A stretch of DNA of 42,557 nt from a virus: positions 1 to 42,557 of the IMG/VR virus record IMGVR_UViG_3300025079_000006. One strand, given 5' to 3'. Of this stretch, positions 7,743 through 25,919 are shown piece after piece (the first letter of the stretch is position 1; every line of letters begins with the position of its first letter). The notes beneath the pieces were generated by a model that saw nothing but the letters and a program-made list of their open reading frames with translations, was not told where the DNA came from and ran no database searches. The translations under genes were made by a program, and so were the position numbers.

Positions 7743-9326
7743 ATGATAGTAAAACAAGTAAGCTTTGAGGATAAGGCACGCCAGGACCTTATTGATGGTA
7801 TCAACACACTGGCTGACGCAGTGAAGAGCACACTAGGTGCTAGGGGCAAGACGGTCCTAATAGAGTCAGAGAATCATACACACGGTATTACAGTGACCAA
7901 GGATGGTGTGACGGTAGCTAAGAGTATTAACCTTATGCACCCCACGCAGAACCTTGCGGTTACGATGATGAAGGAGGCAGCGGAGAACACGGCTGTGTCA
8001 GCTGGCGATGGAACGACAACAGCAATAGTGATAACGCAGGCGATAGTGCTGGAGGCACAGAAGAGGATTAAGGACCACATGAACCTAACCGATATTATTC
8101 GTGCTATACAGAACAGCAGTAAGTACGTGGTAAAGGAACTACAGAAGGATTCAAAGAAGGTGAACGGCAAGCGGCTGTTGGATGTGGCTACCATATCATC
8201 CAATAACGACAAGGTGATAGGTAAGATTATCGCTGAGGCGTATGACGCAGTTGGCGACAACGGGGTAGTGACGGTAGAGAACGCAAGCGGAACAGAGACC
8301 TACTCTGAGATTATAGAGGGGATGAAGATAGACCGAGGGTATTCGAGTAAGTATTTCATAACAGACCAAAAGAAGGGGGAGTGTGTGCTCGACAACCCAT
8401 ACGTGCTAGTGGCAGACCAGGAAATAAACCACACCAGCAGCATTGAGCACATACTAGCACCCATCATACAGGAGGGGAAGCCCATACTAATTATAGGCAC
8501 GCTATCACCAGCGGCACTGAACACGCTTAACCTAAACAAGGCAAAGGGTGTCATTAAGGTGTGCTCAATTATACCACCGCAGTTTGGGTACAAGAGCCAT
8601 GACCTGATGAGTGACATAGCTATAGCAACAGGTGCTACCTACTACTCGGAGGATACGGGGGACAACCTAGAGACCATCCAGATGGCAGACCTAGGTAGGG
8701 CTAAGAAGGTTATCGTCAGCGGTGCAGGCACGGTGCTCATAAAGGACGACACCCAGGGTGTGCACGTTGAGAACAGGATTAGTGACCTGTGGGAGGAGTA
8801 CAACACCAGCGACAATGTACACCAGCAGGAGTTCATCAAGGAGAGGATAGCCATTATGTCTGGCGGTGTAGCGGTGATACATGTAGGTGCAGGCTCGGAT
8901 ATTGAGCAGAAAGAGAAAAGAGACAGGGTTGACGATGCGGTGTGTGCCACAAGGGCAGCCATTGAGCAGGGAATCCTGCCAGGAGGAGGAATAGCACTCC
9001 TAAAAATTGCGGACGACCTCGCCCAGCGAGGTGATAACGAGAGTACTCGTGTGGGTAACTCAATACTATCCGAGGCTATTAAGTCTCCGTTTAGGCAGAT
9101 AATCATAAACGCAGGTGCTAATCCAGATGAGATAGAGCCCAACCTAGACCCAGGGATTGGGTATGACGTAAAGGATGAGAGATACGGGGACATGATTAAG
9201 CTAGGCATCATCGACCCACTGAAGGTAACAAAGAACGCACTAGAGAACGCAGTGTCGGTGGCGACAACCATTATGTCCACTAACGCAATAATAACTAACG
9301 TAAGAGACTATGAAGGCAGTAGGTAA
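7743..9326 (+). CDS. groEL: Chaperonin GroEL (527 aa)
   Basis: Group I chaperonin that folds proteins in an ATP-driven ring cavity. Visible landmarks: TLGARGKTV near residue 30, KDGVTVAK with Asp54, AGDGTTT at 88-93 (nucleotide binding, Asp89), the apical domain with RGYSSKYF and GKPILIIG, and DRVDDAVCATRAAIEQG with Asp397/398 (ATP hydrolysis), then PGGGIALL. Length is close to bacterial GroEL, but the C-terminal GGM-rich tail is missing. The coding sequence looks more GC-rich than the flanking phage genes. groES overlaps its end by 17 nt. Some large phages encode GroEL, usually without GroES; here both are present, probably for capsid or tail folding. Confidence 0.97.
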   Translation: MIVKQVSFEDKARQDLIDGINTLADAVKSTLGARGKTVLIESENHTHGITVTKDGVTVAKSINLMHPTQNLAVTMMKEAAENTAVSAGDGTTTAIVITQAIVLEAQKRIKDHMNLTDIIRAIQNSSKYVVKELQKDSKKVNGKRLLDVATISSNNDKVIGKIIAEAYDAVGDNGVVTVENASGTETYSEIIEGMKIDRGYSSKYFITDQKKGECVLDNPYVLVADQEINHTSSIEHILAPIIQEGKPILIIGTLSPAALNTLNLNKAKGVIKVCSIIPPQFGYKSHDLMSDIAIATGATYYSEDTGDNLETIQMADLGRAKKVIVSGAGTVLIKDDTQGVHVENRISDLWEEYNTSDNVHQQEFIKERIAIMSGGVAVIHVGAGSDIEQKEKRDRVDDAVCATRAAIEQGILPGGGIALLKIADDLAQRGDNESTRVGNSILSEAIKSPFRQIIINAGANPDEIEPNLDPGIGYDVKDERYGDMIKLGIIDPLKVTKNALENAVSVATTIMSTNAIITNVRDYEGSR

Positions 9327-9567
9327 GTATTTAATAATAGAGAACATCACCGAGGAGCTAACCAGCAATAGCGGATTAATAATGACTGGTGAGGACATGG
9401 GGAACCTAAGATACCGCAAGAGTAAGGTGGTTAGTGCAGGCACGGAGGTAGACTGCGTAAAGGATGGCGATACCATCTACCACGACTCCCGTGCTGGTCA
9501 CAAGGTAAAGCTTGATGATAAGGTGTATGGGGTGATTCTAGAGAGAGAGGTAGTGATAAAGATGTAA
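9310..9567 (+). CDS. groES: Co-chaperonin GroES (85 aa)
   Basis: Begins MKAVGKYLIIENITEEL. A mobile-loop segment (ELTSNSGLIM, about residues 15-25) corresponds to the GroEL-binding loop, followed by VVSAGTEVDCVKDGDTIYHD and a C-terminal VYGVILEREVVIKM typical of the Cpn10 fold. At 85 aa it is about ten residues shorter than usual. The start lies inside the end of groEL in another frame, so the two are translationally coupled. It caps the phage GroEL ring. Confidence 0.9.
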   Translation: MKAVGKYLIIENITEELTSNSGLIMTGEDMGNLRYRKSKVVSAGTEVDCVKDGDTIYHDSRAGHKVKLDDKVYGVILEREVVIKM

Positions 9568-9575
9568 TTTATTCA

Positions 9576-9583
9576 TATCTTTG
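9576..9583 (+). promoter_or_regulatory. TAnnTTTG promoter for basic-protein cluster
   Basis: TATCTTTG, 16 nt before the ATG at 9600 and 8 nt after the groES stop. It probably drives the small basic genes up to the next promoter at 11203. Confidence 0.7.
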
Positions 9584-9599
9584 TATCAAATCAAGGATT

Positions 9600-9800
9600 A
9601 TGAGTAAGATGGTTAATAGGAAACGGAAGTGCCCTAGAGGGCAAAAGTTCAGTAAGCGTAAAAACAGATGTGTAGAAAGGCTTGTCAGTAAGGCTGGCAT
9701 AGACACACCTGATGCTTTAGCTGGTTTAGTTGGTGTTTTAGGTGGAGGATTAGGAGCTTACGCTAAAGTAAAGTCGGATGTTAAAAAGCAAGGACGATGA
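9600..9800 (+). CDS. Small basic Cys-containing protein (66 aa)
   Basis: Begins MSKMVNRKRKCPRGQKFSKR, with CPRGQ...RC resembling a short two-cysteine loop, then a Gly/Ala hydrophobic segment (LAGLVGVLGGGLGAYAKV) that could enter a membrane or pack in a virion. The tail is basic. It is the first gene of the basic cluster. Its TGA overlaps the next ATG. Function unknown. Confidence 0.65.
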   Translation: MSKMVNRKRKCPRGQKFSKRKNRCVERLVSKAGIDTPDALAGLVGVLGGGLGAYAKVKSDVKKQGR

Positions 9801-9973
9801 ATTATAGAACATCACAACCATTACACCCAACCGAATTAGGGTGCCCCCCTAATTGTAATAGAAGCGTAAAAACTAAACGAAAAGCTCACAGCAAACAATT
9901 AAAAAAGTGCGGTAAAAAAACTTTGGGAAGTTGTAAGGTTGTAAATAGAAAAAGAAAACCAAAAAGAAGGTAA
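9797..9973 (+). CDS. Basic Cys-rich protein with RTSQPLHPTE motif (58 aa)
   Basis: Begins MNYRTSQPLHPTELGCPPNC and ends in a Lys/Arg-rich tail (NRKRKPKRR) with four cysteines overall. It overlaps the previous gene by 4 nt. The N-terminal block matches that of the next gene (MSHRTSLPLHPTEGDG), pointing to duplication or a shared docking peptide. Confidence 0.65.
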   Translation: MNYRTSQPLHPTELGCPPNCNRSVKTKRKAHSKQLKKCGKKTLGSCKVVNRKRKPKRR

Positions 9974-9976
9974 ATT

Positions 9977-10207
9977 ATGAGCCACAGAACATCACTACCA
10001 CTACATCCTACGGAAGGGGATGGCAAGAAGAAGAGAAAGGTCGAGAGAGGCACCTATGGCTTCGGTATAGATGGTAAGGAGGTTGCGGTAGAGGGTAAGA
10101 TGATTACCAGAAGGAGTGGTAAGAAGAGGTTTGTACCTAAGAGCCGTGCCAATAAAAAGATGTTTAGGGTAATAGACCGCAATAAAAGAAAAGGCATAAA
10201 GGGTTAG
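9977..10207 (+). CDS. Basic protein with RTSLPLHPTE motif (76 aa)
   Basis: Begins MSHRTSLPLHPTEGDGKKKR. The middle GTYGFGIDGKEVAVEGKMI resembles a segment of the following protein (GTYGNYDGKDVSHKGNRI). The C-terminus is strongly basic (RNKRKGIKG). It lies 3 nt after its paralog-like neighbour. Likely nucleic-acid binding; function unknown. Confidence 0.7.
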   Translation: MSHRTSLPLHPTEGDGKKKRKVERGTYGFGIDGKEVAVEGKMITRRSGKKRFVPKSRANKKMFRVIDRNKRKGIKG

Positions 10208-10210
10208 GCT

Positions 10211-10522
10211 ATGGCACTAGGACGTACAGCAAAATATTACAGGGATAACCCAGAGGCTAGGAAGAAGAGGCTAGAGTACCAGAAGAAGTACAACAAGCGT
10301 AAGGACCAGGTAAAACGTAGGGTGTTTGACAACAAGAAGAACCGAGAGTTCGGAACCTACGGCAATTATGACGGCAAGGACGTATCACACAAAGGAAATC
10401 GTATAGTTTTAGAGAAAGAGTCTAAGAATAGAGCCAGTAAGTCTGCCACTAAGGGAGATGTTCGTGCTAGAGGCAAGAAAGGTAAGGGTAGACGCAACAA
10501 AGGAAACACAGGTGGAAGATAA
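10211..10522 (+). CDS. Highly basic phage protein, RTAKYYRDNPEARKK type (103 aa)
   Basis: Begins MALGRTAKYYRDNPEARKKR. The N-terminal half is a basic helix, then GTYGNYDGKDVSHKGNRI and a Lys/Arg/Gly-rich tail (KKGKGRRNKGNTGG). Proteins with this start and a D-x-S-H-type segment recur in marine phages from memory, sometimes called HNH-like. The HNH metal ligands are not convincingly present here, so I do not call a nuclease. Its stop overlaps the next start (TAATG). Confidence 0.75.
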   Translation: MALGRTAKYYRDNPEARKKRLEYQKKYNKRKDQVKRRVFDNKKNREFGTYGNYDGKDVSHKGNRIVLEKESKNRASKSATKGDVRARGKKGKGRRNKGNTGGR

Positions 10523-10647
10523 TGGCAACTAAAAGAAAGAAAAAGAAAATGAAAAACCCATGCTGGAAAGGTTATGAAGCTATAGGCATGAAGAAAAAAG
10601 GTGATAGAAAAGTTCCTAACTGTGTACCTATTAAAAAGAAGAAATAA
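10522..10647 (+). CDS. Small basic protein, NPCWKGYEAIGMK motif (41 aa)
   Basis: Begins MATKRKKKKMKNPCWKGYEA and contains VPNCVPIKKKK. The NPCWKGYE...GMK...VPNCV pattern recurs in marine phages (established from memory, function unassigned), sometimes as a tag-like domain. It is linked by TAATG overlaps on both sides. Confidence 0.75.
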   Translation: MATKRKKKKMKNPCWKGYEAIGMKKKGDRKVPNCVPIKKKK

Positions 10648-10781
10648 TGGCTGGTAAAAAATTCAAACCACACATGATGTATAAAGGCTGTAAAGGTAAA
10701 ATGGCTTTTAAAATACAAGACCATAATAATTTAAAAGCAAAAGGCTATGGTCACACCAAAGGAAAAGATTGTAAAAAGTAA
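10647..10781 (+). CDS. Small basic two-Cys protein (44 aa)
   Basis: Begins MAGKKFKPHMMYKGCKGKMA and ends GYGHTKGKDCKK. Lys/Gly-rich with two cysteines. It starts on the stop of the previous gene (TAATG). The GYGH segment also occurs in the 10912 product (GAKGYGHNYSS). Confidence 0.65.
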   Translation: MAGKKFKPHMMYKGCKGKMAFKIQDHNNLKAKGYGHTKGKDCKK

Positions 10782-10801
10782 TTATAAAAAAAATAAACAT
10801 T

Positions 10802-10912
10802 ATGCCAACAGTAGGAAAGAAAAAGTTTACGTACACAGCTAAAGGAAAGGCTGCCGCTAAGAAGTATGCTAAGAAGACAGGAAAGAAAGTAGCTGTTAAG
10901 AAGAAGTACTAA
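10802..10912 (+). CDS. Tiny Lys/Ala-rich protein, MPTVGKKKF type (36 aa)
   Basis: Begins MPTVGKKKFTYTAKGKAAAK and ends KTGKKVAVKKKY; about one third lysine, like a histone tail. The MPxVGKKKFxYTxKG signature is common in marine phages from memory. It overlaps the next gene by TAATG. A DNA-condensing role is plausible. Confidence 0.75.
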   Translation: MPTVGKKKFTYTAKGKAAAKKYAKKTGKKVAVKKKY

Positions 10913-11202
10913 TGGCTAGCAAGTCAAATATGGCATGTAATAAGCCCCGACCTTCTACCAGACCTGGTAAGAAGCGAATGGTAAAGGGTTGCGAGGGGGG
11001 CAAGGAGAAGCTTGTCCACTTTGGGGCTAAGGGATATGGTCACAACTACTCATCAGCCGCTAGGAAGAGTTTTAAGGCTAGGCACAAGTGCAGCAGCAGA
11101 AAGTCTAAGCTTACAGCGTCCTATTGGGCGTGTAAGAACCTATGGGCTGGCAAGGGAGGCTCTACTAAGTCATCACCAAGCTCACGTAAAGGAAAATATT
11201 AG
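10912..11202 (+). CDS. Basic Cys-containing phage protein, CNKPR...CEGGKEK type (96 aa)
   Basis: Contains MACNKPRPSTRPGKKRMVKG, then GCEGGKEKLVHFGAKGYGH, RKSFKARHKCSSRKSKLTAS and YWACKNLWAG. The order CNKPR, K-x-CEGGKEK-hh-x-FG, RKSFKARH and S-x-YWA matches a family widespread in cyanophages and other marine phages (recognised from memory; function not established). Five cysteines are probably paired or metal-bound. Confidence 0.8.
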   Translation: MASKSNMACNKPRPSTRPGKKRMVKGCEGGKEKLVHFGAKGYGHNYSSAARKSFKARHKCSSRKSKLTASYWACKNLWAGKGGSTKSSPSSRKGKY

Positions 11203-11210
11203 TATCTTTG
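11203..11210 (+). promoter_or_regulatory. TAnnTTTG promoter within the basic cluster
   Basis: TATCTTTG, 14 nt before the ATG at 11225. It begins right at the stop of the previous gene, dividing the basic cluster into two transcription units. Confidence 0.65.
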
Positions 11211-11224
11211 TAAAAAACTAAGTT

Positions 11225-11437
11225 ATGAACAAGTACCAAGACAAAAAATCGGCTATGGATGATTACTCTCACGAGAGAAAATTACGAATAGACGGTAGAT
11301 ACGAGGCAGCACACGGAAAGATGAGAGCTGCTAAGAACGATTTTGACCACGCACATGCACTAAAGAAGGACGCACACTACGACAAAGAGTCACGTTCACA
11401 GTTTAAGGGACACGTACACGGTAGGTTTAAAAGATAA
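11225..11437 (+). CDS. Basic, His-rich helical protein (70 aa)
   Basis: Begins MNKYQDKKSAMDDYSHERKL. Charged helix throughout with nine or so histidines (AHGKMRAAKNDFDHAHALKK). Ends FKGHVHGRFKR. Unlike the rest of the cluster it mixes acidic and basic residues. Function unknown; may be a virion or DNA-associated protein. Confidence 0.65.
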   Translation: MNKYQDKKSAMDDYSHERKLRIDGRYEAAHGKMRAAKNDFDHAHALKKDAHYDKESRSQFKGHVHGRFKR

Positions 11438-11438
11438 T

Positions 11439-11570
11439 ATGCCATTTAAGAAGGCGAATAGAGGTAAGTGTAGGGGTAAGTATGTAAGCCCAAGCGGCAA
11501 ATGCTTTACTAAGAAGCAGGTATCGCTTTATTATGCTACCGATGGAACATTTAAAAAAAGTAAAAAATAA
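11439..11570 (+). CDS. Small basic two-Cys protein (43 aa)
   Basis: Begins MPFKKANRGKCRGKYVSPSG, then KCFTKKQVSLYYATDG and a lysine tail. The pattern C-x3-KYVSPSGKC suggests a short Cys loop. It begins 1 nt after the upstream stop. Function unknown. Confidence 0.65.
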   Translation: MPFKKANRGKCRGKYVSPSGKCFTKKQVSLYYATDGTFKKSKK

Positions 11571-11576
11571 ATAATT

Positions 11577-11777
11577 ATGAAAAAGCAAGGTTACAACGCA
11601 AGATTAGATGAGTCTCTAGGTGGAAGACATAAAGGGAAGCACAAGCAATCATTAAAAGACAGAAGAGATGAGTCTAAGGGTATGTCTAAGAAGATGTATG
11701 GTCACGCCTATGGTGCAGACAAAGGTATGAGTTACAGAGTTTCTCAGCCACTAGCTACTAGTCCTAAATCAAAATAA
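11577..11777 (+). CDS. Basic phage protein, GYNARLDESLG...KDRRDESKG type (66 aa)
   Basis: Begins MKKQGYNARLDESLGGRHKG, with QSLKDRRDESKGMSKK in the middle and a C-terminal MSYRVSQPLATSPKSK. The N-terminal signature is common in phages from memory. The C-terminal YRVSQPL echoes the N-terminal YRTSQPL of the 9797 product, a possible shared peptide used in assembly. Confidence 0.75.
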   Translation: MKKQGYNARLDESLGGRHKGKHKQSLKDRRDESKGMSKKMYGHAYGADKGMSYRVSQPLATSPKSK

Positions 11778-11788
11778 ATATAAAAAAA

Positions 11789-12052
11789 ATGGCATTACCA
11801 ACAAAAAAACCAGCTTCTGGAAGAACTAAGTGTCCACTAAGCCCTATAAAAGGAGCTGATGGCAAAAACCTAAGAAAAGTAATGGTGGGTGGGAAATGTG
11901 TTAACCCTACCACAGCTAATCAGAGAGCTTCTCGTGCAGACCAAATGAAAGCAGATAAGTTAAGACAAAATAAAGCAAGAGGTGCTTCTGCTACCGCAAA
12001 GGCTGCTGAAAAATCAAGAGAAGACGCTAGAAAAAGAGGTGCTCAAATATAA
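11789..12052 (+). CDS. Basic two-Cys protein (87 aa)
   Basis: Begins MALPTKKPASGRTKCPLSPI, contains VMVGGKCVNPTTAN, and then a long Ala/Lys/Arg helix (KLRQNKARGASATAKAAEKS). A short Cys loop followed by a basic helix fits a DNA- or RNA-binding protein. It is the last gene of the basic cluster. Function unknown. Confidence 0.7.
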   Translation: MALPTKKPASGRTKCPLSPIKGADGKNLRKVMVGGKCVNPTTANQRASRADQMKADKLRQNKARGASATAKAAEKSREDARKRGAQI

Positions 12053-12121: not shown

Positions 12122-12526
12122 ATGAAAAAACTAGCACTATTACTTACTTTATTTTCTTTTTTAACTACCCACTCTCAAACAAGTGAATTAATTGTGGAGC
12201 CCACAAGAGCTACCAAAAGAGCTTGTGTTAAGGGAGATTATAAATCATTAGAAAAGTATTTGACTAAAATAGACCAGAAAAGAGAAGTATTAGAGAAGTA
12301 TGTTCTATATACTAATATCAAACAACAGGACTATAACTACATCATAAAAGATATCGACTCAGATATTGAATACTATAAAGGTGTTTCATACGCATTAAAT
12401 AAGATACTTCACCCTTACATTAAGGTTTCATATTATGTAAACGCTAAGTATACAGCCCTAACACAGTATTATGATAATGGTAATCAAGTAAGTGTGTTTA
12501 TTTTTGGGGATTCACCTCAGCATTGA
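12122..12526 (+). CDS. Secreted protein of unknown function (134 aa)
   Basis: Begins MKKLALLLTLFSFLTTHSQ, a signal peptide with likely cleavage near residue 18. The mature part is charged and helical (YKSLEKYLTKIDQKREVLEK), rich in tyrosine, with one cysteine. It is exported to the periplasm or surface. It has its own ECF-like promoter, and its 3' end overlaps the convergent winged-helix gene by 29 bp, so antisense effects are possible. It might act in exclusion or envelope modification, but this is unproven. Confidence 0.7.
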   Translation: MKKLALLLTLFSFLTTHSQTSELIVEPTRATKRACVKGDYKSLEKYLTKIDQKREVLEKYVLYTNIKQQDYNYIIKDIDSDIEYYKGVSYALNKILHPYIKVSYYVNAKYTALTQYYDNGNQVSVFIFGDSPQH

Positions 12527-12995
12527 ACTGACGGATAGCGTGACGATAGATTCTATCGGTAGAGTTACAGGTTCGGTTATTAAATATAGGGTTCCTTCTA
12601 GCTGTCTCAGCAATCTTCTCCTCACCGTTTAGCTTCTTATATACCGAAATTATAAACTTTTTAGTCTTATATGACACCTCATATAGGGCTTTTTCATGGT
12701 TTATACTCTTTCTCCACTTATTAATCCACCCCTCACGAAGTAGCTTATTAAACCTATCCTTGTTCCATGACATTAGTGAGCCGTAGTTCTCACACTGGAC
12801 CCTGGTAAATAATCCCTCGCTGTGGAGGAATAATAGCATATCTAGGTCAGCGGTGGTGATTCCATACTTTTTTTTAGCCCAGTATCTTACAATCCTCCAA
12901 AACTTCAGGTAATCATACTTAGGGTCCTTCCTATCGTATATCTCTGGAGCTGGTCTAGGTCTCTTCTTTTTATATATTACAGGTACTTGTCTCAT
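12498..12995 (-). CDS. Winged-helix-like protein, putative regulator (165 aa)
   Basis: The only minus-strand gene right of the control region. Begins MRQVPVIYKKKRPRPAPEIY. Residues about 45-115 (ITTADLDMLLFLHSEGLFTR, then MSWNKDRFNKLLREGWINKW) have the helix-turn-helix and wing pattern of MarR/PadR-type proteins. The N-terminus is basic. From memory, similar proteins occur in the virion-gene region of other Bacteroidota phages. Its promoter overlaps the divergent late promoter at 13022, so it may regulate itself and its neighbour. Confidence 0.7.
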   Translation of the reverse strand: MRQVPVIYKKKRPRPAPEIYDRKDPKYDYLKFWRIVRYWAKKKYGITTADLDMLLFLHSEGLFTRVQCENYGSLMSWNKDRFNKLLREGWINKWRKSINHEKALYEVSYKTKKFIISVYKKLNGEEKIAETARRNPIFNNRTCNSTDRIYRHAIRQFNAEVNPQK

Positions 12996-13000
12996 AATCC

Positions 13001-13008
13001 CAAAGATA
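13001..13008 (-). promoter_or_regulatory. TAnnTTTG promoter, minus strand, leaderless
   Basis: TATCTTTG on the minus strand lies only 5 nt before the ATG at 12995. The transcript should start at or very near the start codon. It is back to back with the plus-strand promoter 13022-13029. Confidence 0.65.
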
Positions 13009-13033: not shown

Positions 13034-13207
13034 ATGAAGTACAAAAGTATGAGAAGTCGTGGATTGGGTGACTCTGTAGAAAAGATTGCTCGTGCGACAG
13101 GAATTAAAACGATAGTAGAAAAAGGAGCTAAGGCTATGGGTAAAGACTGTGGGTGTAGTAAACGCCAGAAAACTTTAAACGACCTTTTTCCTTACAATAA
13201 AAAATAA
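13034..13207 (+). CDS. Conserved phage protein, GDSVEKIARATGIKT...CGC type (57 aa)
   Basis: Begins MKYKSMRSRGLGDSVEKIAR and contains ATGIKTIVEKGAKAMGKDCG, CGCSKRQKTLNDLFPY. The pattern GDxVExI...TGIKxxV...DCGCxxRxxxLNxxFPY recurs in Bacteroidota phages and prophages (from memory, function unassigned). Vicinal cysteines may bind metal. It is the first gene of the rightward unit starting at 13022. Confidence 0.75.
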   Translation: MKYKSMRSRGLGDSVEKIARATGIKTIVEKGAKAMGKDCGCSKRQKTLNDLFPYNKK

Positions 13208-13484: not shown

Positions 13485-14309
13485 ATGTACATAGCTATCG
13501 CAAATAGTGTAGGTGCGTCTAGTAGGGCATCTGGGGGAGTTAGACCAACTCCATTTTCTAATGTATATTCCTGTGCCTTCGATGGTGTTGATGACTACTT
13601 AGAAGGTGGAGATGTTCTACATAATGATGGACAAACTCCGATGACATTGTCAGCTTGGGTAAATGTTTCTACTAATGGTGATTTTCCTATTGCTTCAAAG
13701 AAAAAAATAAGAGGTGCACCTGGATATCTAATGCAAGGTTGGGATATTACTCTTGATACATCGGGAGCGTCTAAAAACAAACTGACGTTTACGTTAATAG
13801 GTGCAACGTCAGGTAGTGTTGGAATTGGTAACATATCAGTAAAGGCAAATGGTTTTGATTTTAATGATGGTTTATGGCATCACGTTGTAGTTACCTATGA
13901 TGGCTCAGAAAATGCAAGTGGAGTTAAGTTTTATAAAGATAGCGTTGAAGATACGAATATTCAGACTTTGCAAAACACCTTTTCTGGAAATTCACCAAAC
14001 GTACCTTCAGCAAATTTTAAAGTAGGTACAAGATATAAATATGGTGGAAGTAATTTCTACAATGGTTATCTTGATGAATTAGCAATATGGGATGATACGG
14101 CTATAACTCCTGCTCAAGTTGTTGAAATTTATAATTCGGGAGTACCTAATAATTTAAATGATTTATCTACACCTCCACCTTCTTGGTGGCGAAATGGAGA
14201 CCCTAACGGACAAGCAAGTTTTCCTACTATAGTAGACGATGGCAGTAATTCAAATAGTGTTGAAATGACCAATATGACTGACACAGATATCGAAACAGAA
14301 GTGCCATAA
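13485..14309 (+). CDS. LamG/concanavalin-fold protein, possible receptor-binding protein (274 aa)
   Basis: Residues about 28-220 form a LamG-type jelly roll: FDGVDDYLEGGD, MTLSAWVNVS, DGLWHHVVVTYDGS, GVKFYKDSV, GYLDELAIWDDTAITPAQV and EIYNSG. This order is characteristic of Laminin_G_3 domains that bind sugars. The C-terminal part (PPPSWWRNGDPNG) is unlike the domain. No signal peptide. As it follows a small virion protein, a fibre or surface sugar-binding role is likely. Confidence 0.75.
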   Translation: MYIAIANSVGASSRASGGVRPTPFSNVYSCAFDGVDDYLEGGDVLHNDGQTPMTLSAWVNVSTNGDFPIASKKKIRGAPGYLMQGWDITLDTSGASKNKLTFTLIGATSGSVGIGNISVKANGFDFNDGLWHHVVVTYDGSENASGVKFYKDSVEDTNIQTLQNTFSGNSPNVPSANFKVGTRYKYGGSNFYNGYLDELAIWDDTAITPAQVVEIYNSGVPNNLNDLSTPPPSWWRNGDPNGQASFPTIVDDGSNSNSVEMTNMTDTDIETEVP

Positions 14310-14868: not shown

Positions 14869-15723
14869 ATGAAGAAACTACTCCTACTACTACTTATATT
14901 TCCAATTTTTATTAACAGTCAAGTTACGTTACTAATGCCTAACGATGGTTTCTGGTACACCTACACTACTGACGATGCTATTCTCTACGATGATGGAGGA
15001 TTAAATGATTACGCTAATGATGGGTTAGGGGCTTTGACCATATATCCAGTGATAGGAACAGTAACAGCTAATGTTGGGTTCTTTGATGTAGAATTTAATT
15101 CTACGTGTGGGTGGGATGTTTTTGAGGTGTATGATGGGGATGATTTTAGTAATCTAATAGGAAGCTATTGTGGTACTAGTATTCCAACCACCTTTCAATC
15201 TACACACCCTACGGGAGCACTTACTTTCTTTTGGTCTACTGATGGGAGTGTTACATTCCCAGGATTTGAAATAAGGATAGGTAACTTCAACATGTCTTTA
15301 CCTATAGAGTTAATATCTTTTACCGCTGGATATAATGGTAGTTATGTAGTAATTGACTGGAGTGTTGCGGCACAGATTAATAATGACTATTATGAGGTTC
15401 ACAGAAGTATAGATGTGGAGAATTGGGAAACAATATCTACTATTGAGGGTGAAGGAAACAGTAACACTCAGATGGATTACAGAACGATAGATGAAACCCC
15501 TCTATTAGGTGTTTCTTATTATAGATTATCACAAACAGATTATGACGGGACTACGGAGAGTTTTTCACCCATATCGGTAGTTATTAAACCAAAAAGAAAG
15601 GAATTAGTTAAAATATTTAATATCTTTGGACAAGAAGTAAACCACAATTACCACGGAATTGTTTTTAAATTATACCGTGATGGTTCGGTAGAAAAAACAC
15701 TAAACAATGGGAGATTTAACTAA
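14869..15723 (+). CDS. Secreted CUB protein with type IX secretion sorting domain (284 aa)
   Basis: Signal peptide 1-18 (MKKLLLLLLIFPIFINS). Residues about 20-142 form a CUB domain: ILYDDGGLNDYANDG, WDVFEVYDGDD, GSYCGTSIPTTFQST and ALTFFWSTDGSVT. Residues 145-243 are the LPIELISFTA...YYEVHRSID...YYRLSQTDYDGTTE module that precedes sorting signals in many Bacteroidota T9SS cargo proteins. Residues 247-284 (KIFNIFGQEV...LYRDGSVEKTL) fit a type A T9SS C-terminal domain. The product should cross the inner membrane by Sec and be put on the host surface or released by T9SS. It lies between a holin-like gene and the endolysin, whose start it overlaps by 17 nt. Confidence 0.85.
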   Translation: MKKLLLLLLIFPIFINSQVTLLMPNDGFWYTYTTDDAILYDDGGLNDYANDGLGALTIYPVIGTVTANVGFFDVEFNSTCGWDVFEVYDGDDFSNLIGSYCGTSIPTTFQSTHPTGALTFFWSTDGSVTFPGFEIRIGNFNMSLPIELISFTAGYNGSYVVIDWSVAAQINNDYYEVHRSIDVENWETISTIEGEGNSNTQMDYRTIDETPLLGVSYYRLSQTDYDGTTESFSPISVVIKPKRKELVKIFNIFGQEVNHNYHGIVFKLYRDGSVEKTLNNGRFN

Positions 15724-16090
15724 AAATTTTAGCAAGTCAGAGTTCAACTGCAACTGTGGATGTGATATGCCAGAGGATGTATTTGATAATGTAGATGTAC
15801 ACGCACAGAACCTACAGACAATTAGAGATTTCTTTAATTCTTCAGTAGTTATAAACTCAGGGTACAGATGCCCTAGCTACAATGCTAAGGTGGGTGGAGC
15901 CTCAAAATCTCAGCACATGACTGGCAATGCTAGCGATGTGGTTATATCTGGATACACAGACAGTGAGGTTGCTGACATAATTGAAGGATTAATAAGAATA
16001 GGGGCTATTGACGAGGGTGGATTAGGAAGGTATAACACATTTACCCACTATGACCGAAGGGGTACTAAGGCTAGATGGGACAACACTTAA
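15707..16090 (+). CDS. Endolysin, peptidase M15 family (127 aa)
   Basis: Zinc D,D-/L,D-peptidase that cuts peptidoglycan cross-bridges. Visible features: N-terminal FSKSEFNCNCGC, VINSGYRCPSYNAKVGG, then SQHMTGNASDV with zinc ligands His70 and Asp77, and FTHYDRRG with His114 as third ligand. Length is normal for a single-domain Peptidase_M15_3 enzyme. No signal peptide, so it needs a holin. It overlaps the CUB-protein gene by 17 nt. Confidence 0.88.
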   Translation: MGDLTKNFSKSEFNCNCGCDMPEDVFDNVDVHAQNLQTIRDFFNSSVVINSGYRCPSYNAKVGGASKSQHMTGNASDVVISGYTDSEVADIIEGLIRIGAIDEGGLGRYNTFTHYDRRGTKARWDNT

Positions 16091-18382: not shown

Positions 18383-18666
18383 TGGACATTAAAAAAATCA
18401 AGGAAGAGATTATAGAAGCTGGTGAATTAGCTGTTAGGCAGCTGGTAAAGGTTGCCAAGGAAGAGATTATAAAGCCAGACCCTGATGACGAGTTAGCTGC
18501 TGATAGGTTAAAGAATGCAGCCGCTACAAAGAAGCTCGCTATTTTTGATGCCTTTGAGATTTTAAATAGAATAGAAGCAGAAAGAGCTATGTTAGAAGAG
18601 AGTGGCTCTAGCACAAAAAAAACATCTAGTGGTGGATTCGCAGAACGAAGGTCAAGAAAATCTTGA
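18382..18666 (+). CDS. Terminase small subunit (putative, 94 aa)
   Basis: Begins MDIKKIKEEIIEAGELAVRQ; helical throughout, contains PDPDDELAADRLKNAAATKK and ends in a Ser/Arg tail (GGFAERRSRKS). The call rests on position directly before the large subunit, on size and on helicity; helix-turn-helix is not clear. Start overlaps the previous stop (TAATG), and the frame of the large subunit opens inside its 3' end. Confidence 0.65.
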   Translation: MDIKKIKEEIIEAGELAVRQLVKVAKEEIIKPDPDDELAADRLKNAAATKKLAIFDAFEILNRIEAERAMLEESGSSTKKTSSGGFAERRSRKS

Positions 18667-20875
18667 TTTACATAAGGTAATAAAGTTAGATGTAACCACA
18701 TCTACTATAACTACTAAAAACAAGGCTAAGAGCTGGAAGTATGGTTATAACGAGAAGTATGACGTTGTAATTATTTCTAAGGACGGTACACTAGGAGATG
18801 TCTACGAGATAAACGGATTAAAAATAGGTCTACCTAAAGCACCTACTGATTTAATAAAGGGTAACAATAAGTGGGTGGCTGATAACTACCCAAAAGAACT
18901 TAGCAAGATAAGGACAATTTTTGATTGGAACAAGCGAGACAACCTTTTTAAGGATAAATGGGTTGATTATATAGAATCAGAGTTCGATAGAAGAGAGGAG
19001 GGGTATTGGTTTGTAAATAATGGAAACATTACCTACCTGACAGGCTCTCACTATATGTATCTACAGTGGACTAAGATAGATGTTGGAAAACCCGATTTTA
19101 GAGAATCTAATAGATTATTCTATATATTCTGGGAGGCTTGTAAGGCTGATTATAGAAGCTTTGGTATGTGCTACCTAAAGAACAGGCGTTCAGGGTTTTC
19201 TTTTATGGGTTCTGAGGAGTGTGCTAATATAGGGACGATATCCAAGGATTCTAGAATAGGTATACTATCTAAAAGTGGTAGTGATGCTAAAAAAATGTTT
19301 ACCGATAAGGTAGTTCCTATAACACTTAATTACCCATTCTTTTTCAAGCCCATACAGGATGGTATGGATAGACCTAAGACTGAGCTTGCTTTTCGTGTTC
19401 CAGCTAGTAAGATTACTAAGAAGAACATGTACAATACAGAAACTGATGATTTAGATGGTCTAGATACTTCGATTGATTGGAAAAACACAGACGATAACTC
19501 ATACGATGGTGAGAAGTTATTATTATTAGTACACGATGAAAGCGGTAAGTGGTTAAAACCAAATAACATACTAAACAACTGGAGGGTTACTAAAACATGT
19601 CTTAGGTTAGGTAGTAGAATTATAGGTAAGTGTATGATGGGTTCTACATCTAACGCTTTAGATAAAGGTGGTGATAACTTTAAGAAATTATACGAAAGTT
19701 CTAGTCCGTTTGAAAGAAATAACAATGGACAAACAAAGGCAGGCTTGTATTCCTTGTTTATTCCTATGGAGTGGAACTTTGAGGGGTATATAGATGAATT
19801 TGGAATGCCAGTGTTTTATACTCCAGAAAAACCAATTAAGGGTGTTGATGGACAGTGGATAAAAATAGGTGTTATTGAGTATTGGCAGAATGAGGTCGAC
19901 TCATTAAAAGGAGATGCTGATGCATTGAATGAGTTTTATCGTCAGTTTCCACGAACAGAGTCTCATGCGTTCAGGGATGAGAGTAAGTCATCTCTTTTCA
20001 ATCTAACTAAAATATACCAACAGGTAGATTATAACGATTCCTTAATAAAGGATAGGTATTTAACAAGAGGCAGCTTTCATTGGAAGGACGGTATTAAAGA
20101 TACTAAGGTTATATGGACACCTAATAGGAATGGTAGGTTTTTAGTTTCGTGGATACCAGAGGAAAGATTAAGAAACAATGTGTTTAAGAAGAACGGAAAG
20201 TATCACCCAGGAAATGAACACCTGGGCTCATTTGGTTGTGACCCTTATGACATATCAGGAACGGTGGTTGGTAAGGGCTCTAATGGGTCGTTACACGGAC
20301 AGACTAAATTCAATATGGATAACTGTCCCTCTAATGAATTTTTCTTAGAGTATATAGCTAGACCACAAACCGCAGAGATATTTTTTGAGGAGGTATTAAT
20401 GGCGTGTATATTTTACGGAATGCCAGCACTAATAGAAAACAACAAGGCTAGGATACTGTATCACTTTAAAAACAGAGGATATCGTCACTTTTCCATAAAC
20501 AGACCAGATAAGACCTATAATAAGCTCTCTAAGACAGAGAAAGAGCTTGGGGGTATGCCTAACTCATCTGAAGACATAAAGCAAGCACACGCATCCGCTA
20601 TTGAGTCCTACATAGAGAAGCACGTAGGTTTTGACATGGAGGGTACATATAGGGATTCTGAGGAGATAGGTTCTATGTTTTTTAGTAGAACATTGATAGA
20701 TTGGGCTAAGTTTGATATCAACAATAGGACTAAACACGATGCCTCTATTAGCTCAGGACTTGCAATTATGGCAAATCAGAAGCATATTTACACTCCAACT
20801 AAAGAAGAGTCAAAAATATCTGTTATCTTTGCAAGATATAGTAACAAAGGAAACATAAGCCAAATCATTAAATAA
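18602..20875 (+). CDS. Terminase large subunit (up to 757 aa)
   Basis: DNA-packaging ATPase and nuclease. ATPase: YLKNRRSGFSFMGSEE near residue 195 (deviant P-loop with Arg-Arg) and LLLLVHDESG near 310 (Walker B with catalytic Glu). RNase H-like nuclease: FGCDPYDISGTVVG near 545, PALIENNKARILYHF and a late acidic helix. No early ATG exists; GTG codons at 18602 and 18632 are the candidates, the latter giving a smaller overlap with the small subunit. Its length and large N-terminal region (GNITYLTGSHYMYLQW) resemble terminases of Bacteroidota podoviruses. Confidence 0.9.
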   Translation: MALAQKKHLVVDSQNEGQENLDLHKVIKLDVTTSTITTKNKAKSWKYGYNEKYDVVIISKDGTLGDVYEINGLKIGLPKAPTDLIKGNNKWVADNYPKELSKIRTIFDWNKRDNLFKDKWVDYIESEFDRREEGYWFVNNGNITYLTGSHYMYLQWTKIDVGKPDFRESNRLFYIFWEACKADYRSFGMCYLKNRRSGFSFMGSEECANIGTISKDSRIGILSKSGSDAKKMFTDKVVPITLNYPFFFKPIQDGMDRPKTELAFRVPASKITKKNMYNTETDDLDGLDTSIDWKNTDDNSYDGEKLLLLVHDESGKWLKPNNILNNWRVTKTCLRLGSRIIGKCMMGSTSNALDKGGDNFKKLYESSSPFERNNNGQTKAGLYSLFIPMEWNFEGYIDEFGMPVFYTPEKPIKGVDGQWIKIGVIEYWQNEVDSLKGDADALNEFYRQFPRTESHAFRDESKSSLFNLTKIYQQVDYNDSLIKDRYLTRGSFHWKDGIKDTKVIWTPNRNGRFLVSWIPEERLRNNVFKKNGKYHPGNEHLGSFGCDPYDISGTVVGKGSNGSLHGQTKFNMDNCPSNEFFLEYIARPQTAEIFFEEVLMACIFYGMPALIENNKARILYHFKNRGYRHFSINRPDKTYNKLSKTEKELGGMPNSSEDIKQAHASAIESYIEKHVGFDMEGTYRDSEEIGSMFFSRTLIDWAKFDINNRTKHDASISSGLAIMANQKHIYTPTKEESKISVIFARYSNKGNISQIIK
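20824..20831 (+). promoter_or_regulatory. Possible internal TAnnTTTG promoter before portal
   Basis: TATCTTTG lies inside the 3' end of the terminase gene, 44 nt before the portal ATG. It could boost portal expression, but it is also within coding sequence. Confidence 0.4.
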
Positions 20876-23305
20876 ATGAAGGAATCTACCATAGCAGTAA
20901 ATCCTACTAATTTTCCCAATCAATTAGCTACTGATGCTCAGAAGGCATCAGAAGAGTATGGATTACAGGTAGGTAAATCAATACAATACGAATGGTTTAA
21001 GAGGTCGGGTAATAGTTGTAAGTATTACAATCAATGGGTTGACTTCCATAAATTAAGGTTATACGCAAGAGGAGAACAATCAGTAGCAAAGTATAAGAGT
21101 GAGTTAGCGGTAGACGGTGACTTATCTTACTTAAACCTAGACTGGACACCAGTTCCTATTATACCTAAGTTTGTGGATATAGTGGTTAACGGAATGTCTG
21201 ATAGGCTGTTCACGGTTCAGGCGTATGCTCAGGATGCGATGTCGGCAGACAATAGAAAGTCGTATCAGAATATGATAGAGGCTGATATGGTGGCTAAAGA
21301 TTTCTTACTACAGAGTAAGGAGCAGTTTGGCATAGATGCATTCAATACAGCAGCTGAAGATTTACCTGCCGATGACCAAGAGCTTCAGTTACACATGCAG
21401 CTTAACTATAAGCCAGGTATAGAGATTGCGGAGGAAGAGGCTATCAATACCTTGTTAGAGCAGAATCATTACGCAGATATTCAAAAAAGATATAACTACG
21501 ACATAACTACAGTAGGTATGGGATGGGTTAAGCACGAGTTCTTACCGAACTCAGGTGTTAAGGTTGAATACGTAGACCCAGCAACCTTAGTATATAGCTA
21601 CACAGAAAGTCCTACGTTTGAGGATTGTTTTTATTTCGGAGAAGTAAAGCAGGTTCCAATTACAGAGCTTATTAAGATAAAGCCAGATATAACTAAGGAA
21701 GAGTTACAAGAAATATCAGATACCAGCTCAGGGTGGTATGATTACTACGGTGTAACCAGACAATACCAGAATGATATATTTCAGAAGGATGTTGTTACAT
21801 TATTATACTATAACTACAAAACAGATAAGAAGTTTGTTTATAAGAAAAAATATTTAGAGAACGGTGGTGAAAGAGTTGTTAGAAAGGATGAGGATTTTAA
21901 CCCACCAGAAGGAACAGAGGAGAGATTCGAGAGAATAGAGAAAAGAATTGATGTGTGGTATGAGGGTATTATGATACTCGGAAGTAATAAATTAATTAAG
22001 TGGGAACTTTCTAAAAATATGGTTAGACCTAAGTCAGCCTCTCAGTATGCACTACCTAATTACATAGGTGTTGCACCAAGGATGTATAAAGGTGTTGTAG
22101 AGTCATTAGTTAGACGAATGACAACATTCGCTGATTTAATTCAGATGACACACCTTAAGCTACAGCAAGTAATTGCTAAGGTAGTACCAGATGGTGTATA
22201 CATAGATGCGGATGGTATTAATGAGGTGGACCTCGGAACAGGGGCTGCATATAATCCAGAGGATGCACTTAAGATGTACTTCCAGACTGGTAGTGTTATT
22301 GGTAGAAGCTTTACGCAGGATGGTGAATTTAACCACGGTAAGATTCCTATTCAGGAATTAAACTCTAACAGTGGACAGGCTAAGATGGCTAGTTTAATTA
22401 GTACCTATAATCATTACCTAGGTATGATTAGGGATGTAACAGGTTTAAATGAGGCTAGGGATGGCTCTACTCCAGACCCTAACGCATTAGTAGGTGTTCA
22501 GAAACTAGCGGCACTAAATTCAAACACGGCTACTAGACATATACTAGATGGTAGTTTGTTTATTACTAGAAAATTAGCTGAGGCACTATCTATTAGAGTA
22601 GCTGATGTATTAGAGTATTCTGACTTTAGGGAAGAGTTCGCAAATCAAATCGGAAAATATAATGTAAATATTTTAGAAGATATCAATAATTTATATCTAC
22701 ATGATTTTGGAATTTTTATTGAAGTTTCTCCAGATGAGGAACAGAAAGCACAGCTTGAGGCTAACATACAGATGGCACTTAGTAGAGACCAAATCTCGCT
22801 TGAGGATGCTATTGATATTCGTCAGATTAAAAACATTAAGATGGGTAACGAGCTTCTTAAGGTTAAGAGAAAGAATAAGCAGCAGCAAGACATTGACAGA
22901 GAGAATGAGAAGATGCAGATGCAGTCGCAAATAAATATGCAGTCTCAACAAGCGGCAGCTGAGTCAGCGATGCAGCAGGCACAGGCAGAGATGCAATCTA
23001 AGATTCAAGTTAAGCAGGCTGAGATAGCATTCGAGATTGAGAAGATGAATGCAGAGGCTAACCTTAAGAAAGAGTTAATGGAGGTAGAGTTTAACATGCA
23101 GATGAGAATTAAAGGACAGGAATCTGAGGCATTAAAGACAAGAGAGAATGAAAGAGAGAAGGGCAAGTCAGAAAGGATTAGCCAGCAGTCTACTCAGACA
23201 TCAAAGATAGTTAATCAAAAGAAAAATGACCTACCACCAATAGATTTTGAATCTAATGAGGATAGCTTAGATGGTTTTGATTTAGCTGAATTTGAGCCTA
23301 GATAA
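20876..23305 (+). CDS. Portal protein (809 aa)
   Basis: Dodecameric ring for DNA packaging and tail attachment. Recognised from position between terminase and scaffold, size, and the N-terminal segment YNQWVDFHKLRLYARGEQSV then NLDWTPVPIIPKFVDIVVNG, which resembles portals of crAss-like and Cellulophaga podoviruses from memory. The C-terminus (about 640-760) is a Gln/Glu/Met-rich coiled coil (QQAAAESAMQQAQAEMQSKI), consistent with a portal barrel reaching into the capsid. It begins directly after the terminase stop. Confidence 0.88.
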   Translation: MKESTIAVNPTNFPNQLATDAQKASEEYGLQVGKSIQYEWFKRSGNSCKYYNQWVDFHKLRLYARGEQSVAKYKSELAVDGDLSYLNLDWTPVPIIPKFVDIVVNGMSDRLFTVQAYAQDAMSADNRKSYQNMIEADMVAKDFLLQSKEQFGIDAFNTAAEDLPADDQELQLHMQLNYKPGIEIAEEEAINTLLEQNHYADIQKRYNYDITTVGMGWVKHEFLPNSGVKVEYVDPATLVYSYTESPTFEDCFYFGEVKQVPITELIKIKPDITKEELQEISDTSSGWYDYYGVTRQYQNDIFQKDVVTLLYYNYKTDKKFVYKKKYLENGGERVVRKDEDFNPPEGTEERFERIEKRIDVWYEGIMILGSNKLIKWELSKNMVRPKSASQYALPNYIGVAPRMYKGVVESLVRRMTTFADLIQMTHLKLQQVIAKVVPDGVYIDADGINEVDLGTGAAYNPEDALKMYFQTGSVIGRSFTQDGEFNHGKIPIQELNSNSGQAKMASLISTYNHYLGMIRDVTGLNEARDGSTPDPNALVGVQKLAALNSNTATRHILDGSLFITRKLAEALSIRVADVLEYSDFREEFANQIGKYNVNILEDINNLYLHDFGIFIEVSPDEEQKAQLEANIQMALSRDQISLEDAIDIRQIKNIKMGNELLKVKRKNKQQQDIDRENEKMQMQSQINMQSQQAAAESAMQQAQAEMQSKIQVKQAEIAFEIEKMNAEANLKKELMEVEFNMQMRIKGQESEALKTRENEREKGKSERISQQSTQTSKIVNQKKNDLPPIDFESNEDSLDGFDLAEFEPR

Positions 23306-24500: not shown

Positions 24501-25919
24501 ATGGCAGGAGCTATAACAGGTGCAGCTGGACAACCAGCATTGACACCATCCGCTAGTAAGGCAACATTGCCTACTAATTACATTACTGATTTTAATTTCC
24601 TGAATCAGTACTTACCAGACACGTATGAGAAAGAATTTGAGAGATATGGAAACAGGTCTATCAACGCTTTCTTAAGAATGGTAGGGGCAGAGATGCCTAC
24701 AAACTCAGACCTTATTAAATGGGAAGAGCAAGGAAGATTACATACACAATATACAGGAGTAACTGTAACAGCAGCTGTAGCACTTGGTATTCAAACTTTT
24801 GATATTGCAGCTGGTACGTGTAACTTTAGAGTTGGACAAACAGTGATGCTATCATCAGCTACTGATAATAAATTACTTAAAGGGGTAGTTACGGCAGTTA
24901 ATGCTGGTAATGACCAAGAATTTACTGTAGCTTATTATGGTGCAGGTGTATCGTTTACTAATGGTCTTACAGATGTTGTGGCTTTTGTTTACGGTTCAGA
25001 GTTTAGAAAAGGTTCACCTGGAATGGTTGGTTCTTTAGAGGCTGACCCTGTAATCTTTGACAACAAACCGATTATCATAAAAGACAAGTACGTTGTTGCT
25101 GGTTCTGATATGGCTCAAATTGGTTGGGTTGAAGTAACATCAGAGAATGGTGCTGATGGATACCTTTGGTACATTAAGTCTGAGCACGAGACTCGTTTAA
25201 GATACGATGACTACTTAGAGATGGCTATGATTGAAGGAGTTCCAGCGGAAGCAGCTTCAGGTGCGGCTGGAGAACTTCAAGGAAGTGCAGCAGCAGCGGC
25301 AGTAGCTGGAAAAGGTGGTACTGACGGTATGTTTGATTCTATCGAGAATAGAGGAAATGTTTGGTCTGGTGGTAATCCAACAGCGTTAGCTGATTTTGAT
25401 GCTATCATCCAAAGATTAGATAAGCAAGGTGCGATTCAAGAAAATGTTCTTTTTGTTAACAGACAAATGGGATTTGATATTGATGACATGTTAGCTGCTC
25501 AAAACTCTTACGGTGCAGGTGGTACTTCTTACGGATTGTTTGACAATGACGAAGAAATGGCACTTAACCTTGGATTCTCAGGATTCAAAAGAGGATATGA
25601 GTTCTATAAGTCTGACTGGAAATACCTTAACGATGCTACCTTAAGAGGTGGTTTAACTGCTGGTATAGTAAACGGTGTGTTAATTCCAGCTGGTTCTACT
25701 AATGTATACGACCAGGTTATGGGTAAAAATGCTCGTAGACCTTTCTTACACGTTAGATACAGAGCTTCTGAGACTGAAGACAGACGTTACAAGACTTGGA
25801 TAACAGGTTCTGCTGGCGGTGCTGCTACAAGTGACCTTGATGCAATGGAAGTTAACTTCCTTTCTGAGAGAGCACTTTGTACATTAGGTGCAAACAACTT
25901 CTTTATCTTTAAGAGCTAA
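24501..25919 (+). CDS. Major capsid protein (472 aa)
   Basis: Begins MAGAITGAAGQPALTPSASK. The segment YLPDTYEKEFERYGNRSIN, then FLRMVGAEMPTNSDLIKWEE, matches the N-arm region of capsid proteins of Bacteroidota podoviruses from memory. HK97 fold expected. It is followed by a strong terminator. Codons are regular, as in a highly expressed gene. An inserted Ala/Gly-rich segment (GSAAAAAVAGKGGTDGMF) lies near 260-285. Confidence 0.88.
   Translation: MAGAITGAAGQPALTPSASKATLPTNYITDFNFLNQYLPDTYEKEFERYGNRSINAFLRMVGAEMPTNSDLIKWEEQGRLHTQYTGVTVTAAVALGIQTFDIAAGTCNFRVGQTVMLSSATDNKLLKGVVTAVNAGNDQEFTVAYYGAGVSFTNGLTDVVAFVYGSEFRKGSPGMVGSLEADPVIFDNKPIIIKDKYVVAGSDMAQIGWVEVTSENGADGYLWYIKSEHETRLRYDDYLEMAMIEGVPAEAASGAAGELQGSAAAAAVAGKGGTDGMFDSIENRGNVWSGGNPTALADFDAIIQRLDKQGAIQENVLFVNRQMGFDIDDMLAAQNSYGAGGTSYGLFDNDEEMALNLGFSGFKRGYEFYKSDWKYLNDATLRGGLTAGIVNGVLIPAGSTNVYDQVMGKNARRPFLHVRYRASETEDRRYKTWITGSAGGAATSDLDAMEVNFLSERALCTLGANNFFIFKS

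Follow-up and report, generated by a model that had tools for sequence, protein, structure and literature searches.

A cassette of twelve small, strongly basic phage proteins drawn from a pool of exchangeable families and possibly destined for the phage head

Strongly basic core proteins are known from several double-stranded DNA (dsDNA) viruses of eukaryotes, among them baculovirus P6.9, ascovirus P64, and the basic proteins of PBCV-1, which passages of two papers describe as thought to neutralize the packaged DNA (PMC6163548, PMC3281028). For phage dsDNA, the corresponding passage of the second, published in 2012 and concerned with chlorella virus DNA, holds that evidence for a large contribution of basic proteins to neutralization is lacking (PMC3281028). 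Two further systems are relevant here: the phrog_727 or Syn33_105-type proteins of cyanomyoviruses, which are single multi-module proteins of 300 to 520 amino acids (aa), and Tlr6F, which according to an excerpt of its 2015 description is conserved across polinton-like viruses, virophages, giant viruses, and a number of phages and resembles no domain whose structure or function is known (PMC4642659). Here we analyzed IMG/VR virus record IMGVR_UViG_3300025079_000006, from a marine virus of bacteria, over 42,557 bases (the window), in which a cassette of twelve tiny genes, P1 to P12, encodes basic proteins. These resemble the eukaryotic viral core proteins in being strongly basic, but no sequence relation to them was found; the 2C_adapt domain of ascovirus P64 gave no match in the window, and DNA binding has been shown for P64, whereas for the cassette proteins it is a prediction. 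P5 and other cassette families recur as successive modules of the cyanomyovirus proteins, whereas the cassette carries them as separate tiny genes. P8 is a homolog of Tlr6F, from which it differs in having two added cysteine pairs and a basic tail and in sitting in a cassette.

The twelve open reading frames (ORFs) abut one another on the plus strand at positions 9600 to 12052 and encode proteins of 36 to 103 aa with isoelectric points of 9.8 to 11.3, in agreement with a preliminary description of this DNA that had reported twelve small basic proteins in a row. The TAATG and ATGA joins of that description were also recovered, with one ATGA and three TAATG overlaps among the 11 junctions (spacings from P1 to P12 of -4, 3, 3, -1, -1, 20, -1, 22, 1, 6, and 11 nucleotides [nt]). 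Lysine plus arginine accounted for 25 to 41% of residues across the twelve, making them both small and strongly basic. Over the whole cassette, lysine (20.9%), arginine (9.0%), and cysteine (2.3%) far exceeded their levels in the other called window ORFs of at least 60 aa (6.7%, 3.7%, and 0.7%, respectively). The summed net charge of a full set is +182, with P9 as the weakest member (+7 over 70 aa). Where the preliminary description spoke of many proteins with two or more cysteines, the precise figure is seven of twelve (2, 4, 0, 0, 2, 2, 0, 4, 0, 2, 0, and 2 in P1 to P12). Under a mechanical gene caller that drops P5 and P6 in favor of antisense ORFs, small basic genes still ran to at most six in a row among all called genes and seven among small genes only; of 100,000 label shuffles, 41 and 28, respectively, did as well. 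Spurious ORFs in A-rich DNA are a scarcely credible source of such a run. Lysine codons are A-rich and the window has 37% G+C, but the genes tile tightly, a net charge per length of at least 0.10 was reached by only 3 of 42 other small window ORFs (vs 12 of 12 in the cassette), and P4 to P8 and P11 are conserved as proteins in other contigs, so that for these members the idea is already contradicted.

Related loci were collected around three anchors. Among 80 IMG/VR terminase relatives, 35 had at least 5 kb of upstream sequence; 16 of these carried a run of at least two small basic genes upstream, 3 had isolated ones only, and 16 had none. The P8 and P11 scans covered the best 80 of 557 and the best 80 of 365 confirmed matches, respectively, and because some contigs are in both sets, co-occurrence counts describe association and not rates. 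Clustering gave about 24 basic families, each in at least 6 loci, and the P8- and P11-anchored loci included arrays in which as many as ten such tiny genes stood together (L194). With 21 family profiles, at least four families were found in 67 of 80 P11-anchored, 34 of 80 P8-anchored, and 12 of 80 terminase-anchored loci, and these 113 loci displayed 81 different gene orders. P8 and P11 occurred together in 33 of the 80 P11-anchored loci, and P8 stood alone in 18 of the 80 P8-anchored ones. The cassette is thus filled from a pool of about 24 exchangeable families and is not a fixed set. Some tiny cassette genes themselves exceeded the Pfam cut-offs for DUF5872 and DUF6321. A tally of cysteine parity across all families (49 basic clusters; modal counts of 0 in 28, 2 in 12, 4 in 3, and odd in 6) gave no clean contrast and was not used. 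No description of such a cassette was found in a literature search limited to open-licence papers.

Recurrence in other phages, which the preliminary description had claimed for several members, was clear, among the relatives retrieved, for six of the twelve: P4, P5, P6 (10647 to 10781; 44 aa, 2 Cys; homologs in L010, L071, and L077), P7 (10802 to 10912; 36 aa, 0 Cys; phrog_33179, the MPTVGKKKF family), P8, and P11 (11577 to 11777; 66 aa, 0 Cys; the GYNxRLDESLG family). A thirteenth member lies slightly apart on the plus strand at 13034 to 13207. It belongs to the GLGDSVEK...DCGC family (120 loci, including 77 of the 80 P11-anchored ones), which usually forms the right border of the cassette in relatives, and it is the same kind of array gene as the twelve. 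P1 (9600 to 9800; 66 aa, basic, 2 Cys), P2 (9797 to 9973; 58 aa, basic, 4 Cys), and P3 (9977 to 10207; 76 aa, basic, 0 Cys) had no match in the loci examined. In the same loci, P9 (11225 to 11437; 70 aa, 0 Cys, weakly basic, His-rich), P10 (11439 to 11570; 43 aa, 2 Cys), and P12 (11789 to 12052; 87 aa, 2 Cys) matched solely the near-identical contig L183.

P8 (10912 to 11202; 96 aa, 4 Cys) fell below the curated Pfam cut-off for Tlr6F/DUF5754 (PF19058; 18.8 bits, and also 17.8 bits at an E value of 0.0035, vs 27.4). Its 51% identical ortholog elemoA gp45 passed at 44 bits, and by this sequence bridge P8 is a homolog of Tlr6F/DUF5754. An AlphaFold2 model of P8 built from 56 sequences (mean predicted local distance difference test score, 81.6; predicted template modeling score, 0.72) has a beta-hairpin and two helices. 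It matched 17 viral models at E values up to 0.001, with phage models among them, including an entry of 1,393 residues, which is the length of the CL131 portal protein, and more weakly giant-virus proteins (e.g., Tunisvirus, E = 3.6e-3). No fold in PDB was matched by the model (Foldseek, VIA-align), and no solved structure by the P8 profile. In the CL131 portal-MuF protein, a P8 module occupies residues 530 to 608, between Phage_portal_3 and Phage_Mu_F; the protein (L091, 2417 to 6598) combines portal, P8/Tlr6F module, InPase domain, and MuF domain in one chain. The BFVD match list carries an XkdF label, and "Peptidase_S78_2" on the Vibrio GR11A match is a mere label on a 118-aa ORF; a prohead-protease fusion is not claimed.

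The cysteines of P8 vary in pairs. Among 113 distinct sequences, C9 and C27 occurred together in 99 and were jointly missing from 14, with no discordant case, and C60 and C74 occurred together in 82 and were jointly missing from 30, with a single discordant case (L195, which carries a deletion at that site); across the pairs, 24 to 25 of the 113 were discordant. On a tree built without the cysteine columns, pair 1 changed four times and pair 2 three times. This pattern fits what two disulfides would give, and a zinc site is disfavored because the two pairs are lost independently.

P4 (10211 to 10522; 103 aa, 0 Cys) matched phrog_6437 over most of the family length (E = 3.5e-26; profile positions 2 to 82 of 86) and so belongs to the same PHROG as Syn5 gp50, P-SSP7 gp48, and gp080 of phi38:1/phi40:1 (E = 3.8e-22 for gp080). 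The GenBank note on phi40:1 gp080 reads "structural protein, annotation based on experimental MS/MS proteomics analysis," MS being mass spectrometry. The identical note stands on phi40:1 gp069 (L085, 6689 to 7030), which is also small and basic and matched none of the families here. In Syn5 and P-SSP7, the P4 homologs adjoin the terminase small subunit and HNH genes. One alignment (A5) joined P4 to L158 and L148, both with an intact HNH_3 match, and the bridging L158 matched both HNH_3 (1.4e-10) and phrog_6437 (4.4e-5). P4 differs in lacking the loop between the HNH motifs and in having no HNH family match of its own; HNH_3 (PF13392) was matched only by L158 and L148, and P4 had no Pfam match. 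The alignment suggests that P4 is probably a dead derivative of an HNH_3 protein. A search for solved structures with the P4 profile returned one chance-level match (E = 0.58), and PDB comparisons (Foldseek, VIA-align) gave nothing significant.

P5 (10522 to 10647; 41 aa) is a two-cysteine CW-GY...VPNC module that also occurs as a segment of larger proteins. Syn33_105 (a cyanophage protein of 454 aa, its gene lying between gp16 and gp17), S-SCSM1_29, and S-CREM2 gp160 contain, in series, modules that are separate genes in flavophage cassettes. Profiles of the tiny flavophage genes, scored against 1,000 shuffled decoys, supported this arrangement for P5 (38.7 bits in Syn33_105, 25.6 in S-SCSM1_29, and 15.3 in gp160; best decoy, 5.3), a DUF5872-like family (35.5 to 45.1 bits in the three; best decoy, 7.6), and a DUF6321-like family (41.2 bits in Syn33_105 and 47.1 in S-SCSM1_29; best decoy, 4.8). 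Families f4 and f5 scored about as high as the decoys, and we make no claim for them. Two of these proteins have been reported in virions. S-CREM2 gp160 (128342 to 129235) is listed in the available portion of a virion proteome table with 7 unique peptides and 13.1% coverage (PMC10665884); S-SCSM1_29 is labeled "virion protein," a label that we infer to reflect MS; the S-SCSM1 paper, in the section available, counts 45 virion proteins by MS (PMC9602691). No solved structure was found for S-SCSM1_29. P5 modules also occur in proteins annotated as cytidyltransferase (L102, 1655 to 2998; L095, 2018 to 4147), for which Pfam backing of the enzyme domain just reaches the cut-off in C48C1 and is missing in Sf-CH8. 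The Virus 2-cysteine adaptor family (PF08793) was considered for P1, P5, P10, and P12, the spacing being alike by eye, and gave no window match at E values up to 10.

Taken together, we consider it somewhat short of an even chance (probability of roughly 0.45) that the cassette acts as a block of late-operon genes whose interchangeable products, cationic mini-proteins, go into the phage head and form pair-wise disulfides. Each product would be one small module that other phages have as a separate gene or strung into one virion protein. The products would be expressed together with head and tail genes, and late expression fits because the cassette lies ahead of the tail, lysis, and terminase genes. 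They would then reach the prohead along with the DNA or head proteins, and there their combined charge (+182 per set) could neutralize and organize some of the packaged DNA or the contact that it makes with the portal and head; DNA condensation may be the natural function of such modules. The paired cysteines would close as disulfides outside the cell and reopen in the reducing cytoplasm on entry. Location in the head of this phage, DNA binding, disulfides, and redox opening are predictions. The preliminary description had proposed a defined module that may supply protamine-like or core proteins to condense DNA in the capsid, or may modify the host nucleoid or ribosomes. A real, recurring module stands, and P4 and P5 relatives are reported in the virions of other phages; the fixed set of twelve does not stand.

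Several observations weigh against this interpretation. Virion detection is confined to other phages, for relatives of P4 and P5, and P4 is only about 38% identical to its virion-detected relative; the accessible portion of the phi38:1 proteomics paper, the gene numbers of which differ, names no protein mappable to gp080. Six members (P1 to P3, P9, P10, and P12) have no informative homolog. Because the upstream region lacks small basic genes in 16 of the 35 terminase relatives, including the close relatives L003 and L004 (10 kb upstream), and holds only isolated ones in 3 more, the cassette is not an obligatory head component. By simple arithmetic, about 66 copies of each protein would be required to neutralize a tenth of a 60-kb genome. 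No DNA-binding fold was recognized for P8, since it has no solved relative. The P5 module keeps its cysteine/aromatic core yet is acidic in haloarchaeal viruses, which argues against a purely electrostatic, protamine-like role, and it also lies within a cytidylyltransferase-like protein; on both counts an adaptor fits as well as a DNA binder.

These P5 findings, together with the variable content and the roughly half of informative relatives without a cassette near the terminase, keep two other virion-linked explanations in play. The cassette proteins could be head-assembly or packaging adaptors, that is, Cys-stapled clamps on portal, scaffold, or terminase that act by protein-protein contact, with charge being secondary and P4 a packaging accessory. 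The P8 module inside the CL131 portal-MuF protein, the P4 homologs beside terminase small subunit and HNH genes, the protein bridging HNH_3 and phrog_6437, and, in HRTV-29, an acidic P5 module in a protein encoded between the portal and major capsid genes all favor adaptors. (HRTV-29 gp36 had no Pfam match and is not claimed as a head protease.) We nevertheless regard adaptors as unlikely, if the best of the alternatives, as they leave unexplained both the convergence of many unrelated families on 25 to 41% Lys+Arg and an array of a dozen, and the cassette is absent near the terminase in many relatives. Slightly less probable are injected effectors, borne in the virion and entering with the DNA to act on the host nucleoid, ribosome, or defenses. 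Rapidly changing content, as in the 81 gene orders, would be expected of an arms race, nucleic acids or ribosomes are fitting targets for basic peptides, and the cytidyltransferase-annotated proteins with P5 modules belong to a class reported in cyanophage virions in the parts available of two papers (PMC9602691, PMC10665884). However, the sharing of P8/Tlr6F among phages, virophages, and giant viruses, as given in the excerpted 2015 description (PMC4642659), suggests a basic virion role and not a bacterial target, and in CL131 the P8 module is part of the portal protein.

A hot spot of accessory genes, with late intracellular expression (e.g., for anti-defense or lysis timing) and products outside the virion, would account for the variable content, the terminase relatives that lack small basic genes there, and the six members without informative homologs. 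It is improbable given that two families have MS-based virion reports and that cyanophages have these modules joined in series in neighborhoods of structural genes.

If the head-protein reading is true, these proteins may help pack or carry viral DNA, a task for which tailed bacterial viruses were believed not to use proteins. With a dozen cationic, virion-linked genes in one cassette, the neutralization of phage DNA by proteins would become testable in culturable flavophages. The cassette would also supply a genomic setting for Tlr6F function, with the specific disulfides C9-C27 and C60-C74 predicted in P8, and it connects families of unknown function (DUF5754, DUF5872, DUF6321, phrog_6437, and phrog_727). 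As a broader and rather doubtful extension, the DNA core of some tailed phages might contain protein, supplied by an exchangeable kit of cationic mini-proteins that is disulfide-locked through paired cysteines outside the cell and opened in the reducing cytoplasm on entry, with Tlr6F as a common part and the cyanophage multi-module proteins as the same kit strung together.

In the window, clear matches identified the terminase (18602 to 20875; phrog_6681), portal (20876 to 23305; phrog_6547), and a structural protein (24501 to 25919; phrog_13704). The window terminase shares 70% identity with its counterpart in the uncultured podovirus MW202828, about 45% with those of Flavobacterium elemo phages, and 32 to 41% with those of Cellulophaga and Tenacibaculum phages. 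To the left, the cassette is flanked by phage groEL (7743 to 9326, plus strand; tblastn matches in L031, L043, L074, L082, and L083, annotated groEL in the last two) and groES (9310 to 9567, plus strand; matches in 8 loci), and the groEL flank recurs beside the cassette in several relatives. To the right, a LamG-like protein (13485 to 14309) and a Peptidase_M15 lysis gene (15707 to 16090) precede the terminase and portal; the cassette lies 5' of tail, lysis, and terminase genes.

The two promoters of the preliminary description held in a different form. Scans of the window gave no excess of sigma-70-type promoters; TATCTTTG, which we take to be the Bacteroidota -7 element (TAnnTTTG), occurred 14 times vs 2.8 expected, a count reached in none of 100 shuffles. 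Plus-strand copies at 9576 to 9583 and 11203 to 11210 end 16 nt 5' of the P1 start codon and 14 nt 5' of the P9 start codon, respectively, and TATCTTTG is likely the phage's own promoter element. Other sites among the 14, which often lie directly 5' of genes, include 13001 (minus strand), 13022, 27341, and 35399.

Short peptide tags are shared within the cassette. The N termini of P2 (9797 to 9835; MNYRTSQPLHPTE) and P3 (9977 to 10015; MSHRTSLPLHPTE) are identical at 10 of 13 positions, and the C terminus of P11 (11730 to 11774) is SYRVSQPLATSP. YRTSLPLHPTE or YRTSLPLHITE opens two basic proteins of other loci, on different bodies. The motif was present in 8 of 861 small basic proteins (shuffle mean, 1.4; largest, 4), and the shared tag is possibly one for targeting. 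Facing the right end of the cassette is the sole minus-strand gene of the region (12498 to 12995; phrog_17028, function unknown), for which the TATCTTTG site at 13001 is its own upstream copy.

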